Source of the DNA: Candidatus Sulfotelmatobacter sp. | GTDB lineage: Bacteria; Acidobacteriota; Terriglobia; Terriglobales; Acidobacteriaceae | NCBI GenBank assembly: GCA_030041215.1 | Contig: JASHOH010000058.1 | Coordinates: forward strand, 1-64,000 | Length of the DNA stretch: 64,000 bases | Direction: 5' to 3' | Shown: positions 4,732 to 12,042 of the stretch, piece by piece | Layout of the letters: each line of letters begins with the position of its first letter | Numbering within the stretch: the first letter of the stretch is position 1 | The notes under the pieces: model-generated | The model's input: the letters and a program-made list of their open reading frames with translations, nothing else | Told to the model about the DNA's origin: nothing | The model's database searches: none | Position numbers and translations under genes: made by a program

Positions 4732-5712
4732 GTGAAAGCCGCCGTCCTCAGAACACCCAAACATCATCTTGAGATCGAAGACCTGCCCAAGCCGCAAGTC
4801 GCCGGCGGCGAAGTTCTGCTCCGCGTCCGCGCCTGCGGAGTCTGCCGCACCGATCTTCACATCGTCGATGGCGAACTGCCGCCGCGCAAGCAACCGCTCA
4901 TACCCGGCCATCAAATCGTCGGCACCATCGAAGACGGCGCCAGGCCAGAACTTCCGCTCGGCAGCCGCGTCGGCGTTTCCTGGATGGGCGGCATCGACGG
5001 CACTTGTCCCTATTGCCGCCGCGGCCTCGAGAACCTCTGCGACTCGCCCACCTTCACCGGATACACCGTCAACGGCGGCTACGCGCAGTATGCCGTCGCG
5101 CGCAGCGACTTCGTCTATCCGCTGCCGCCCGAGCTTGATGACCTTCACGCCGCGCCATTGTTGTGCGCGGGCATCATCGGCTTTCGCAGCCTGCGCGTCG
5201 CCGGAGTCGAGCGCGGCGAGCGCGTCGGCCTGTTCGGCTTCGGCGCGTCGGCGCATCTGGTGATTGCCGTTCTCCATGCCTGGAACTGCGACGTGTATGT
5301 TTCGACGCGCGGCGCTTCGCATCAGGCGCTCGCGCAATCGCTAGGCGCGAAGTGGGTCGGGACCGAAGCTGACAAGCCTCCGGTGGAACTCGATCGCGCG
5401 GTAACGTTCGCTCCCAGCGGAGACGTGGTCATCGCCGCGCTCTCCAGCTTGCGCAAAGGAGGAGTCGTTGCCATCAACGCCATTCATCTCGACCGCATGC
5501 CGCAATTCGATTACGACAAGCTTCTCTGGGGCGAGCGCCAGATTCGCAGCGTCGCCAACATGACGCGCGCCGACGCGCGCGACTTCCTGAAGCTTGCAGC
5601 CGAGATCAACCTGCAACCAAAGGTGACAGTCTTTCCTCTCGAACGCGCCAATGACGCGCTCGCGGCTGTTCGTCACGATGCAATCGACGGCGCAGCAGTC
5701 GTTGTGCCGTGA
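4732..5712 (+). CDS. Zinc-dependent alcohol dehydrogenase family protein (CAD2/AdhA-like MDR)
   Basis: 326 residues, medium-chain dehydrogenase/reductase. GTG start with AAGAGG eight bases upstream. Expected activity is NAD(P)-linked oxidation of an alcohol or reduction of an aldehyde. Catalytic zinc ligands are visible as Cys38 (ACGVCRTD), His60 (PGHQ) and Cys145 (LLCAG). The Rossmann segment is GLFGFGASAH. The WGERQIRSVANMTR and GGYAQY motifs match the cinnamyl-alcohol-dehydrogenase-like bacterial subgroup. In the structural-zinc loop only three of four cysteines remain (Cys92, Cys95, Cys103); the first is Asp89 here. The natural substrate cannot be told from sequence. The 3' side opens into the repeat-rich region. 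Confidence 0.88.
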   Translation: MKAAVLRTPKHHLEIEDLPKPQVAGGEVLLRVRACGVCRTDLHIVDGELPPRKQPLIPGHQIVGTIEDGARPELPLGSRVGVSWMGGIDGTCPYCRRGLENLCDSPTFTGYTVNGGYAQYAVARSDFVYPLPPELDDLHAAPLLCAGIIGFRSLRVAGVERGERVGLFGFGASAHLVIAVLHAWNCDVYVSTRGASHQALAQSLGAKWVGTEADKPPVELDRAVTFAPSGDVVIAALSSLRKGGVVAINAIHLDRMPQFDYDKLLWGERQIRSVANMTRADARDFLKLAAEINLQPKVTVFPLERANDALAAVRHDAIDGAAVVVP

Positions 5713-5752
5713 ACGAAACTCGCGCGGTCGATTCCTTAACGTGATGTCATTC

Positions 5753-5955
5753 CACTTCTCGCAAAGAAGGCGAGACGTGGGGCACCCCGCAAAGCCGCAT
5801 TTCACGCGGGTTTCAAGCGGGCACAAGGGATGAAGTCGGCGTCGTTGCCGATTGAAGAGAGCAGCAGGTTCCTCACAGACCCTTCGGACCTGTTCGGAAT
5901 GACATCAGGAGTGGAAGGACGCTGAACGCGGCGCTGAAGCGCCGCTCTTCCACGG
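5753..5955. repeat. Dispersed repeat, copy A (about 200 bp)
   Basis: This block recurs with high identity at 6189-6437, in the same orientation. It begins CACTTCTCGCA, contains the shared stretch GATGAAGTCGGCGTCGTTGC, and ends in a palindromic GGCGCTGAAGCGCC hairpin (5930-5943). The 30 bases at 5925-5954 occur again at 50448-50477 with one mismatch. No transposase is encoded inside, so it looks like a non-autonomous composite of smaller palindromes. Confidence 0.85.
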
Positions 5956-5958
5956 CAA

Positions 5959-6011
5959 TTCGCGGGCAGAGCCTGCCCTGAGCGAAGTCGAAGGGAGTGC
6001 CTGCGCCACAC
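5959..6011. repeat. REP palindrome interrupted by a 25-base insert
   Basis: The ends match the REP copy at 6483-6509 (CGCGGGCA ... GGAGTGCC). The palindrome is split by 25 bases (5969-5993) that contain CCTGAGCGAAGTCGAAG. The insert falls at the stem/loop boundary. Confidence 0.75.
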
Positions 6012-6029
6012 TTTCACTGTCCCCTGGCA

Positions 6030-6122
6030 GCGCCAGAAATGCATGGATTCTTGCTTCGCTCAGAATGACAACGTAAACCGCCGGCAGAAATGCATGGATT
6101 CTTCGTTCCGCTCAGAATGACA
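6030..6122. repeat. Two tandem copies of a GCTCAGAATGACA-type repeat
   Basis: AGAAATGCATGGATTCTT is followed by a CGCTCAGAATGACAA-like end twice in a row (near 6034-6071 and 6084-6122). The same family forms the inverted pair at 10691-10776. It appears non-coding. Confidence 0.7.
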
Positions 6123-6188
6123 AGGTAGACTTTGTATGAAAATCGCTCCCCACTAAATCGCGAAATTCAGCCAAAAACAGCCCAAGCC

Positions 6189-6437
6189 CACTTCTCGCAG
6201 AGAAGGCGAGAAGTGGGGCACCCGCGCAAAGCCGCATTTCACGCGGGCTCCAGGCGGCCACAAGGGATGAAGTCGGCGTCGTTGCCGATTGAAGAGAGCA
6301 GCAGGGGTTCCTCACAGGTCCTTCGGACCTGTTCGGAATGACATCAGGAGTGGAAGGACGCTCAACGCGGCGCTAAAAGCTTGCCCTGAGCGAAATGAGC
6401 GAAGCGAATGAGTCGAACGGGCGCCGCTCTTCCACGG
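6189..6437. repeat. Dispersed repeat, copy B, with a 46-base insert in its terminal palindrome
   Basis: Direct copy of 5753-5955. Where copy A has the three-base loop GAA, copy B carries 46 bases (6375-6420) beginning AAAAGCTTGCCCTGAGCGAA. That insert shares the TGCCCTGAGCGAA core with the insert in the REP at 5969-5993. Confidence 0.85.
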
Positions 6438-6482
6438 TGATTCCAGGCTGATCGGCACAATTGGAAGTCGTGCCCTTCCCAG

Positions 6483-6509
6483 TTCGCGGGCAGGAGTGCC
6501 CGCGCCACA
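6483..6509. repeat. REP palindrome (CGCGGGCA-GGAG-TGCCCGCG)
   Basis: An eight-base-pair perfect stem closes a GGAG loop and is followed by CCACA. This is the same element that bounds the RAYT gene at 11369-12042, so it is a likely target or product of that transposase. Confidence 0.85.
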
Positions 6510-6698
6510 TTAGTCCCCGCTGGCGTGGTTCTGGCTGGTCACCAGAATCAGCCGTGGGCGCGAAGTTGGGCGCGGACGCGATGAAGGCGCGAGGGCGAAC
6601 AGGATGGTAGAAATTGCGGCGTAGGCTGCGGCCACGCCGATTCCAACCGAAAGCACTACGGTGACGCAGAGTACCACAGGCATGAGAAGCGAAATCAC
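6510..6698 (-). CDS. Small membrane protein (hypothetical)
   Basis: 62 residues from a GTG at 6698, with AAAGGGTGG about seven bases upstream. Residues 1-36 are one long hydrophobic segment (LLMPVVLCVTVVLSVGIG) followed by a basic, Pro/Arg-rich tail ending NHASGD. The composition is unlike a chance shadow and there is no larger gene on either strand here. Its stop codon abuts the REP at 6483-6509. No function can be assigned; a single-pass inner-membrane peptide is the most that can be said. It could still be a chance ORF. Confidence 0.4.
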   Translation of the reverse strand: MISLLMPVVLCVTVVLSVGIGVAAAYAAISTILFALAPSSRPRPTSRPRLILVTSQNHASGD

Positions 6699-6929
6699 TG
6701 TCCGACCACCCTTTGAAATAAAACTGCCATTTAGATGCCGCCAATCAGGCTTGCTGATGCAGAAACTTCAATTTACCCGCGATCTGCTGCGCCGCTAGTG
6801 ACGACTCAGATGCTCCACAACTCGTAGTAAAATACGGAGTAGAGCTGTGCTCCTCTAATCTCGATGAATTCTGTAAACCTGTCGACATTACGGAAGGGCA
6901 ATCCAGCCTGTTTTTCGATCAATTCCTAA

Positions 6930-9734
6930 ATGGCTATTACCAGCATTACCGTCCGGGGGGCGCGGCAGCACAACCTCAAGAACATCGACGTCGAAATTCC
7001 GCGGAACACGTTTACGGTTGTGACCGGGCTGAGCGGCTCGGGCAAGTCGTCGCTTGCCTTCGACACGATTTATGCCGAAGGCCAGCGTCGCTATGTCGAG
7101 ACTTTATCGACCTATGCTCGCCAGTTTCTGGACCAGATGGAGCGTCCGGATGTCGATGCCATTGATGGACTTAGCCCGTCCATTTCGATCGAGCAGAAGA
7201 CCACCTCGCGCAGTCCGCGCTCGACCGTGGGAACGATCACCGAGATCTACGATTATCTTCGCCTGCTATTCGCTTCGATTGGGGTTCCGCACTGCCCCAA
7301 ATGCGGGCGGCCGATCAGCCGCCAGACAGCGGAGCAGATCGTACAGCGGGTCATGATGCTCACTCCTGAGGATCGTGTAATGGTTCTTGCGCCCATCGTC
7401 CGCGGGCGCAAAGGCGAGTTCAAAAAAGAAATGGAAACGCTGCTCAAGCATGGCTACGAGCGCGCGCGGGTGGATGGCGAGCTGGTGAACCTGGATGACG
7501 ATCTCAATTTGGACAAGCGCAAGAACCACACGATTGAGGTCGTGATCGATCGGCTATTGGTGAAGCCTGGAATTGAGCACCGGCTGGAAATGTCGGTGGG
7601 CTTGGCGATGAAGCTGGCCGGAGGGTTAGTTCAAATCGCCGTGGTGAACGGCGAAGAAACTTTATATTCGGAGAAGCTGGCTTGTCCGGATTGCGGCATC
7701 AACGTGCCGCAGCTCGAGCCGCGCTCGTTTTCGTTCAACAGCATGTACGGGGCGTGCCCTGAGTGCCACGGCCTCGGCAGTCGCTATGACTTCGATCCAG
7801 CAAAGGTAATCACCGACTGGTCAAAGCCGCTGCTCGATGGCGGACTGGGGCCGGGGTCGGGCTCGCAGAGTTTGATTCATGCCCTGCAGGTCACCGCGGC
7901 AGCACACGGGATTGACCTGAATACTCCATTTGAGAAATTTCCCGACAAGATTCAGGACCTGCTGCTAAATGGCGAATCGGGCCGGGGCCGAACAGGGTTT
8001 CGCGGAATATTCGGATTTTTGAAGCAGAACCTGGAGGAATCGACTTCCGAGGGTTATCGCGACTGGCTGATGGACCACATGTCGGCGACCGAGTGTCCGG
8101 CATGCCAGGGAAAAAGACTGCGGCCGGAAAGCCTGGCGGTGAAAGTGAACGGAATGTCGATCGCCGACTTCGCGGCGCTGCCAATTTCGCGGGCTTTGGA
8201 AGTGGCGCGTGGAATCAAGCTGACCGGTCGCGAAGAGCAGATCGCCGGGCGCGTGATGCACGAGATTATCGAGCGCCTGCAATTTCTGAATGCGGTGGGG
8301 CTGAACTACATTTCTTTGGATCGTTCCGCAGCGACGTTGTCCGGCGGTGAAGGACAGAGAATTCGGCTGGCCACGCAGATTGGCTCGAAGTTGCGCGGCG
8401 TGCTCTATGTGCTGGATGAGCCTTCCATTGGGCTGCATCATCGCGACAATGCTCGTTTATTAAATGCGCTCGAAAATCTTCGCGATCTCGGTAACACGGT
8501 GTTGGTAGTCGAACATGATGAAGAGACAATTCGCCGTGCTGACTACGTGATCGACTTAGGTCCGGGTGCAGGCCGCCATGGAGGAGCGCTAGTGGCGCAT
8601 GGAACTCCAGCCGAAATCATGCGCGAGCCGAATTCGCTCACGGGCGCATACATCTCCGGCCGTACGCAAATTCAAATGCGCGAAGCACGGCGGCAGCCAA
8701 ATGGCGCGGCACTCACGATTCTCGGAGCGAAGGAAAATAATCTCAAGAACCTCGATGTGACGATTCCTCTAGGCGTCATAACAGTCGTCACCGGTGTCTC
8801 GGGCTCCGGCAAGTCAACATTAGTTAACGATATCTTGTACCGTGCCTTGGCGCGTCAGCTTTACCGTTCGCGCGAAAAAGCGGGCGAGCACAAAGCGATC
8901 GTCGGCGCGGAGAACATTGATAAAGTCATCCGCATTGATCAATCGCCGATCGGCCGCACGCCACGCTCGAATCCCGCGACCTATACGGGCGTCTTCACCC
9001 CGATTCGCGACCTGTACGCCATGCTGCCCGAGTCGCGCGAGCGCGGCTACAAAGCCGGACGATTTTCATTCAATGTCGCTGGCGGACGCTGCGAAGCCTG
9101 CCAGGGCGAAGGGCAGCGCCGCATCGAAATGAATTTTCTGCCCGATGTCTACGTGCTCTGCGAAGTCTGCCGCGGCCGCCGCTACAACAGCGAGACTCTT
9201 GCCGTGAAATATAACGGATACTCCATCGCCGACCTGCTCGAGATGCCGGTTTCCGACGCGCTGCCGATTCTGGAAAACATTCCTCAGGTGAGGCAGAAGC
9301 TGCAAACGCTGGTCGATGTCGGACTGGGCTACATTCATTTAGGCCAGTCAGCAGTGACTTTGTCCGGCGGCGAGGCGCAACGCATCAAGCTGGCGCGCGA
9401 ACTGAGCAAGCGCCAGACGGGCAAAACTCTTTACTTGCTCGACGAGCCGACCACGGGGCTGCACTTCGACGACGTGAAAAAGCTGCTCGACGTGCTGCAC
9501 CGTTTGACCGACCTGGGCAATTCAATCATCATCATCGAACATAATATGGATGTGATTCGCAACGCCGACTGGATCATCGACCTCGGCCCCGAAGGCGGCG
9601 AAGAGGGCGGCCGCATCGTCGCCCATGGCGCGCCCGAGCAGGTGGCGAAGGTGAAGAAGTCGTATACGGGGCAGGCGCTGGCGGCGTATTTTGGAAAGTC
9701 AGTTGCCTGTTCTCAGTTGCCAGTTGTGAGTTAA
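6930..9734 (+). CDS. uvrA: Excinuclease ABC subunit A
   Basis: 934 residues, close to the usual 940. UvrA is the DNA-damage sensor ATPase of nucleotide excision repair; it forms a dimer, loads UvrB and leaves. Both ABC modules are complete: Walker A GLSGSGKS at residues 33-40 and GVSGSGKST in the second half, each with its own LSGGE signature and a DEP Walker B. The CPDCG/CPECHG and [15 protein letters not shown] zinc modules are intact, as is the early CPKCG pair. The ATG at 6930 fits the conserved N-terminus, although no strong ribosome site precedes it. The last 11 residues ([11 protein letters not shown]) are unlike UvrA and come from a CAGTTGCC-type repeat at 9700-9730. The gene stands alone; uvrB/uvrC are not in the window, but mfd is (37.3-40.9 kb). 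Confidence 0.97.
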
Positions 9735-10823: not shown

Positions 10824-11354
10824 TTACCAGGTATCGCCCCCACGCCGTGGCGGCCAGGCGCCGAGCGCGCGGCGGATGAGCGCAATCTGTCCGGAGTGGT
10901 AGCTGTTGTGCGCAACCATCTGCCAGAGTACTGATTCGAGCGTGCCAGCTACCTGCCGATCGCCTGCGTGGATGCTTTCGAGCTGGCGATCAAGTTCGTG
11001 ACGTGGAGATTGTCCTAGTTCTATCAACTCAGCGAGAAGAACCGCAAACTGCTGCTGCAGGTGTTTCCATTCCTTAGGATCGACCGCCTCGGCTGGGAAG
11101 CTCTCCGAATTGTGCTGGGGATGTTGCGGGCTTTGGCCGCGAATACGGCGCAATTCGTAGTCCATCCAGTAATTCATGTGAAAGACGAGTTGCGCTATGG
11201 AGTGGGGAAATCCCGCCACTCGGTAGTTCGCCAACTCTGGTGAAAGATCTTCGACGCAGGCCACTGGATCAGCGTGGGAGCCCTTACCGTGCAGCAGTTC
11301 GGTCAGTGCCCGCATGGACATGAGAGTTCCCAATCGACTGTGGCGCTTGCGCAT
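10824..11354 (-). CDS. DinB-family protein (four-helix bundle, putative metal-dependent enzyme)
   Basis: About 176 residues. DinB/YfiT proteins are four-helix bundles that commonly bind a metal through three histidines; some are thiol transferases using bacillithiol or mycothiol, many are uncharacterised. Here the His-bearing segments VFHMNYWMDYEL and WQMVAHNSYHSGQIALIRR are visible and fit the pattern. The start is ambiguous: ATG 11354 has GAGG four bases upstream, while ATG 11321 begins the MSMRALTELLHGKG segment that looks like the conserved N-terminus. The longer frame to 11441 runs into the REP at 11369-11402 and should not be used. The gene lies between a REP copy and the RAYT element. 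Confidence 0.82.
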   Translation of the reverse strand: MRKRHSRLGTLMSMRALTELLHGKGSHADPVACVEDLSPELANYRVAGFPHSIAQLVFHMNYWMDYELRRIRGQSPQHPQHNSESFPAEAVDPKEWKHLQQQFAVLLAELIELGQSPRHELDRQLESIHAGDRQVAGTLESVLWQMVAHNSYHSGQIALIRRALGAWPPRRGGDTW

Positions 11355-11368
11355 TGTACCTCGGGCAT

Positions 11369-11402
11369 GTGTGGCGCGGGCACTCCTGCCCGTGAAATGC
11401 CA
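11369..11402. repeat. Left inverted REP of the RAYT unit
   Basis: Begins GTGTGGCGCGGGCACTCCTG and ends AAATGCCA. It forms a hairpin with a CTCC loop and is the inverse of the right-hand copy. Confidence 0.88.
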
Positions 11403-11511
11403 ATGAATAGAATCACAGTTGCTGACACTAAGTATCCCCATTCCCGGGAAAAAGAAAAATCCTCTCCTTTTTGCCAGTTCGCCGATCCTCCGGCGTGCTT
11501 ACCATGTCTCT

Positions 11512-11993
11512 ATGCCCAGCACCCTCTTTCGTCGTTACGAATATCACCGCCGCCTGCCCCATTATCAAAAGACGACCGCCCTGTCTTTGTAACCTTCCGA
11601 AGAATACGTGGCTTTTATCTGAGCCCGGCAGCTCGGGGTTTGGTGCTTCAGCATTGTCTGTTCGAATCTGGGAGAAGAATCCAACTCCATGCAGCTGTCG
11701 CGATGCCCGACCACGTTCATCTACTCTTCACCGCTTTGCGTGATGGCGGTGGATGGACATTCGCTCTGCCTGAAATCATGAAGGCGATCAAAGGAACTTC
11801 TGCCCGCAGTATTAATAAGCTTATGGAACGGCATGGTCCGGTATGGCAGGATGAGTCATTTGATCATGTGATACGAGGGAATGAGAGTTTGAAAGAGACG
11901 GTGGAGTACATCCAACAGAACCCGGTGAGAAGGGGCCTGGTTGCAGCTCCGGAGGATTATGAGTGGCTGTGGATTGCGGATGATTTCAGATAG
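11512..11993 (+). pseudogene. REP-associated tyrosine transposase (RAYT, Y1/HUH family), apparently frameshifted
   Basis: RAYTs are HUH single-strand nucleases related to IS200/IS605 TnpA and process REP hairpins. The HUH motif is in AVAMPDHVHLLF, and the likely catalytic Tyr is in TVEYIQQNPVRRGL. Other family blocks are ALPEIMKAIKGTSARSINK and GPVWQDESFDHVIR. The typical N-terminus (MPSTLFRRYEYHRRLPHYQK) starts at ATG 11512, but in a different frame from the rest; the switch occurs at about 11566-11571 in CAAAAG, where one base seems missing. Read in the catalytic-domain frame alone, the ORF is open upstream to 11274, but that extension is spacer and REP sequence, not protein. The gene is either dead, translated by frameshifting, or affected by a base-call error. 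No good ribosome site was seen. Confidence 0.8.
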
Positions 11994-12008: not shown

Positions 12009-12042
12009 TGGCATTTCGCGGGCAAGAGTGCCCGCGCCACAC
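12009..12042. repeat. Right inverted REP of the RAYT unit
   Basis: TGGCATTTCGCGGGCAAGAG followed by TGCCCGCGCCACAC. It is the inverse of 11369-11402 with two mismatches and ends 16 bases before the next gene's stop codon. Confidence 0.88.

Follow-up and report, generated by a model that had tools for sequence, protein, structure and literature searches.

The window, a stretch of 64,000 nucleotides from Candidatus Sulfotelmatobacter sp., contains a number of palindromic repeats and a predicted REP-associated tyrosine transposase (RAYT/TnpAREP) gene at 11397-11993 (plus strand). The listed open reading frame opens at 11274, with a likely start at 11397, and its product contains the HVH motif and matches the profiles NF047646 (86.8 bits, cut-off 80) and PF01797 (34.7 bits, cut-off 23). 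One REP lies directly upstream of the gene (11371-11394, minus strand) and another, inverted relative to it, directly downstream (12017-12040, plus strand). Both are of the same type as an uninterrupted repeat at 6485-6508 (minus strand; 0 mismatches, fold z -4.5), which counts strictly as a REP, since its type flanks the window RAYT gene in inverted orientation, and which has 38 matches in the genome as against 0 for the control. A further repeat of this GTGG-tagged type occupies 5961-6009 on the minus strand, the tag being read on that strand from the CCAC at 6006-6009, with arms formed by CGCGGGCA at 5961-5968 and TGCCTGCG at 5998-6005 (one mismatch). Its GGAG loop, intact at 6485-6508, is split by a 25-nt module, AGCCTGCCCTGAGCGAAGTCGAAGG (plus strand), which lies at 5970-5994 or, with a one-base slide of a G, at 5969-5993, the ends being those given by an excision scan of 94 copies. 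The module is flanked by CGCGGGCAG on the left and GAGTGCC on the right. A search of positions 5400-7000 against Rfam returned no relevant match, the best being mir-3618 with 20.5 bits (gathering threshold 99).

A second occurrence of the module is found in a duplicated segment. Copy A (5752-5961, plus strand) has an empty hairpin at 5928-5947, a sequence with 54 genome matches and 0 in the control, and in copy B (6188-6443, plus strand) the hairpin arms, 6367-6373 and 6421-6427, are parted by a longer variant of the module. The alignment of A and B, over some 200 bp, contains a single long clean gap of 43 nt extra in B (6378-6420, plus strand), between TGAA/TAAA and GCGCC, which places the insert in the hairpin loop, adjoining the 3' arm. 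The insert begins and ends like the 25-mer (AGCYTGCCCTGAGCGAA ... GTCGAANGG) but has a longer middle with a second GAGCGAAGCGAA motif, and TGCCCTGAGCGAA...GTCGAA is common to both window inserts. The original prediction, that a module with a common motif and GTCGAA lies within two different palindromes of the window, is borne out by these comparisons, with copy A as the empty form; the 46 bases which it described as replacing a three-base loop are the 43-nt gap plus a G-to-A change. Locus L131 has a near-identical 43-nt variant in a hairpin of this kind, and because flanking bases common to copy B and L131 are absent from copy A, the copy B insert may have been gained by a short conversion from another filled hairpin. 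The filled copy B site folds no better than shuffled sequences (z -0.18), and a three-level nested hairpin considered for it was not supported by folding.

Across a bacterial family the module occurs as a short interspersed element, either as a 25-nt unit or in longer forms that keep the ends and vary in the middle. In the window taken by itself the 10-mer is not enriched when one mismatch is allowed (10 found, 6.4 expected). Genome-wide there are 55 occurrences of CCTGAGCGAA as against 8 of its reversed control, and AGCCTGCCCTGAGCGAA with up to three mismatches gives 139 matches in the 5.03-Mb draft genome, Acidobacteriales-like by its uvrA relatives, as against 5 for the reversed control. 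A 23-nt version is present in 30 of the 31 genomes of the genus, with 0 control matches, and the exact 25-mer, with up to one mismatch, in 7 of 149 genomes of the phylum, a count that takes in the own genome; 6 of the 7 belong to the same family. Lengths range from 25 to 46 nt, and among the genome copies the middle varies between the two fixed ends, with 10 variants in the 11 copies of one REP type; some middles also hold another hairpin motif similar to GAGCGAAGCGAA. The variants of the middle go in part with particular hosts, and both the insert of copy B and its surroundings are like those of L131, so that filled composites clearly multiply as well. Modules also occur head-to-tail inside one hairpin, joined at the same ends, at L346 (units exactly 25 nt apart), L337 (units of two different subtypes) and L151, and one REP type holds the module in both orientations (L317 and L375). 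A single module folds weakly (26-mer minimum free energy -1.6 kcal/mol, z +0.54, DNA parameters). Tandem G.A pairs and GAA loops have special stability.

A set of 94 near-exact copies, to which four sister genomes contributed 79 and the own genome 15, was used to assess the relationship of the module to hairpins. The module was removed in silico from each and the best hairpin sought, with both cut points moved independently from -4 to +4. The sister copies were those among the matches listed with up to one mismatch in genomes G001, G002, G042 and G045, copies with two or three mismatches being left out, and the own-genome copies were drawn from among the matches listed of the 139. Hairpin restoration peaked at a cut of 25 nt (44/94, or 46/94 in the register slid by one base), with 41/94 for the neighbouring 0/-1 cut and 6-38 for all other cuts, and because the peak lies at exactly 25 nt the ends of the module derive from the data and go beyond mere definition. 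In the 94 reconstructed empty sites the junction fell inside a hairpin 43 times (17 in the loop, 17 in the 3' arm and 9 in the 5' arm). A central hairpin was found in only 13 of 187 stretches of nearby DNA (p 9e-14) and in 77 of 470 mismatched pairs of left and right flanks (p 3e-9), and with the module left in place only 5 of the 94 sites had it inside a hairpin. A closing stem of at least 6 bp across the module was present in 21/94 as against 4.7 expected, and the joined flanks folded with a mean z of -1.48, compared with -0.28 for nearby DNA.

No hairpin reached threshold in 43 of the 94 reconstructed sites. Among the 51 hosts with a hairpin, the 43 junctions inside compare with 23.6 expected if placement were uniform and the 17 in loops with 7.1 expected. 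Since one REP type supplies many of the loop cases a non-redundant set was needed; this comprised 45 hosts, 20 of them with a hairpin, and the junction lay inside in 15 of the 20 as against 9.3 expected (p = 0.009), whereas the loop excess was not significant (5 of the 20, 3.0 expected, p = 0.17). A loop-only model was rejected as a general rule, the mountain-height rank of the junction in own-genome copies having a mean of 0.56 and exceeding 0.9 in only 10 of 70. A looser local-alignment stem score, in which the module end was set one G too far, reached at least 6 in 20 of 72 copies as against 14% of mismatched flanks, a modest excess; 6 of the 78 candidates, with three mismatches, had been removed before this test, and 2 more without 40-nt flanks before the height-rank test. 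One row dropped from the counts, L003:1318, is apparently a divergent real module in a reversed hairpin of the copy A type. The preference of the module is for hairpins and not specifically for loops. The claim that it inserts at hairpin loops therefore holds for hairpins as a whole, but loops account for only 17 of the 94 sites and arms for 26, and with regard to the suggestion that the placement would be due to chance if most copies lay outside palindromes, the copies divide about equally into those with a recognisable hairpin and those with no clear one.

The hosts are mainly REPs, and the expectation that they would be different palindromes is confirmed genome-wide by several that are unrelated. 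In addition to the strict REP of the window, the copy A hairpin and an uninterrupted host GGGACAGCCGCC(N3)GGCTGTCC, with 63 genome matches and 0 in the control, are REP-like as read from their sequences, by copy number, hairpin and an adjoining GTGG or GTAG/GTGG. Further host junctions include GGCACGCC-TTTCAG|GCGTGCC at L012, GACGGACAG|GAGTGTCCGTC at L262, CCCAG|GACGTAAGTCCTGGG at L343 and CCCCAC|GTCTCGC...GCGAGACGTGG at L312. In a set of 41 non-redundant hosts, which excludes the 10 of the 94 copies that lack a GG after the module, the module is followed by G in 40; it is preceded by a purine in 36/41, with an A at -2 in 22/41, and on the complementary strand the junction reads C|Y, often C|T. 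For TnpAREP, cleavage of REP DNA in single-stranded form is reported at C|T, and at CC for a substrate with a GTGG tag (PMC8266576). The junction rule resembles these cutting sites, a likeness that is suggestive only. Apart from a single ambiguous G, neither the copy A/B comparison nor that of the REPs showed a target-site duplication, the best excision length being 25 nt with no duplicated flank.

An orthologous empty site was sought for the window region, with no syntenic match apart from the uvrA side in G008. At L149 (1464-1629) a comparison was possible with the corresponding slot in orthologues L455-L472, although 15 of the 24 sister loci were left unscored as both flanks were not separately recovered. 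In 8 sister genomes the slot measures 16-82 bp and has neither REP nor module, in one genome it extends to 342 bp and has a different REP, and in the own genome it contains a filled REP. Because of this the whole composite at L149 is lineage-specific, the comparison not isolating the module step alone. The gene-to-gene slot at this locus has been colonised differently from lineage to lineage.

An important consideration in accounting for the module is to ask what kind of enzyme might place it. Precise ends in hosts that are unrelated, insertion in either orientation and units joined head-to-tail point to one that recognises the ends, and the exact ends, the several unrelated palindromes and a hairpin excess far above chance make an element that attacks cruciform or single-stranded hairpin DNA a reasonable reading. 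The RAYT/Y1 class is the obvious candidate since there are 6 Y1_Tnp matches in the own genome, one of them the window gene between the host REPs, and some in 29 of 31 genomes of the genus, with counts correlated with module number (rho 0.58 over 31 genomes, 0.43 partial for completeness, and weaker among the 18 genomes with a completeness of 90% or more, p = 0.055). This role is weakened by the module being untagged and a poor folder alone, by the finding that it forms an inverted flanking pair at 0 of the 6 Y1_Tnp loci of the own genome, and by two genomes with modules and no Y1_Tnp match (G008 with 4 and G022 with 3). Genome G021 has 1 Y1_Tnp match and no module, and at the Y1_Tnp locus L188 there are two module-like matches in the same orientation.

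The explanation that is tentatively preferred, with a probability a little below even, is that the module would go in as one exact unit immediately 5' to a G, its targets being mostly REP-type hairpins already present, whether at the loop or in a stem arm. The enzyme would be a RAYT-like (TnpAREP, HUH-Y1) single-strand nuclease/ligase acting in trans while the REP DNA was extruded or single-stranded, cutting the hairpin after a C on the complementary strand and joining the module in, and the filled REPs would then spread as composites. We infer this action of a RAYT from sequences. A somewhat unlikely variant is that the module is a distinct untagged micro-element of about 25 nt which parasitises REP hairpins, in which case a RAYT-type or unknown HUH enzyme would insert it next to a G in any extruded hairpin and its own middle would take up hairpin motifs, giving rise to Russian-doll palindromes across one bacterial family.

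Other processes might produce filled palindromes. A replication fork stalled at a hairpin might, with no dedicated enzyme, allow the growing strand to copy the module from another palindrome and then return; that the hosts are palindromes agrees with such template switching, as does the GG/G common to the 3' junction, which permits one- to two-base microhomology, but copying of this kind should yield variable end points, and the same ends recur in many unrelated hosts and at the joints of head-to-tail units, so that we consider it unlikely. Equally improbable is that filled REPs arose only rarely and that short gene conversion between REP copies carried the filled form around. The nearly identical 43-nt variants of copy B and L131, with their common flanking bases absent from copy A, are what conversion would leave, and the partly host-specific middles indicate that composites multiply, but the 25-nt form is also found in hosts without common arm sequence and in both orientations in one REP type (L317 versus L375), and neither is readily made by conversion. 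It may also be asked whether insertion is random and copies persist only in expendable intergenic palindromes. The host REPs are indeed high-copy repeats and the REP slot examined is lineage-specific; nevertheless a central hairpin is far rarer in nearby controls (13/187) than at module junctions (43/94), and the G rule (40/41) would not be expected from survival alone, which makes this the least probable of the explanations and a very unlikely one.

The published systems most like the module are the GTAG/CGTC REPs with their RAYT/TnpAREP, in which a unit of 20-45 nt likewise reaches tens of copies in genomes with RAYT genes (PMC3733652, PMC8266576, PMC2817692). REPs are also known inside palindromes and C|T cutting is known for TnpAREP (PMC3733652, PMC8266576); REP units inside other palindromes are described from A. 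variabilis, T. roseum and H. neapolitanus (PMC3733652). The module differs in having no strong hairpin and in entering both the loops and the arms of many host palindromes that are unrelated to one another. No terminal GTAG/GTGG or CGTC tag is present on either strand of the 25-mer, and none of the features of the REP superfamily sought in the module (terminal tag, stable stem-loop, inverted RAYT flanking) was found, whereas the host REP (5961-6009/6485-6508 type) is a tagged hairpin that flanks a RAYT in inverted orientation through its copies at 11371-11394 (minus) and 12017-12040 (plus). The insertion sequences ISPsy8, ISPpu9, ISPpu10 and ISRm22 target REPs and insert precisely inside REP hairpins, ISRm22 at the axis of the palindrome, and as with the module the joined flanks restore the REP; these elements have their own transposase and 2-6 bp direct repeats, whereas the module is 25 nt, non-coding and without clear duplication (PMC1525189). 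At 25-46 nt it is too short to encode a transposase, and its identification as an insertion sequence or IS200-IS605 element was rejected. A classical DD(E/D) MITE was also rejected, as terminal inverted repeats with a target-site duplication were not found, there being no duplication beyond the ambiguous G. Mitochondria too have very short mobile palindromic units that resemble the module, namely the mobile GC clusters of yeast and the repetitive hairpin elements of sponges, but these belong to other genomes and apparently have no RAYT or REP link (PMC4478555, PMC2800124). A literature search found no description of the module, nor of any 25-nt unit that lacks a tag and enters REP hairpins of many kinds, and the 11-mer CCTGAGCGAAG gave text matches only in papers that, judged by title, are not on bacterial repeats. 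REPs and ISs inside palindromes are thus already published, and the module acts like a REP yet lacks the REP features tested.

In this group of soil bacteria the module is probably placed in palindromic repeats by the enzymes that spread such repeats. The dissemination of REPs is described as poorly understood in the abstract of PMC8266576. With dozens of exactly defined sites in each genome, some filled and some empty, the family provides a target rule at the level of the base, the G after the junction, and these sites could be used against purified RAYTs, the insertion of REPs at new places being still unsettled. It would also show REP hairpins to be landing sites for units far smaller than an IS. 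Two other types of repeat were observed in the window. An adjacent pair at 6031-6078 and 6082-6130, about 90% alike and reading GTCATTCTGAGCG...AAGAATCCATGCATTTCTG on the minus strand, may be a relative of the module, a CTGAGCG...GAAG-like core being common to both. Palindromes of the CCCACTTCTCGC type lie at 5752-5787 and 6187-6217, and inverted copies flank two other RAYT-like genes, at L184 (approximately 1268-1305 and 1929-1966) and L185 (near 1289 and 1932), so that this palindrome is probably the REP of those genes.
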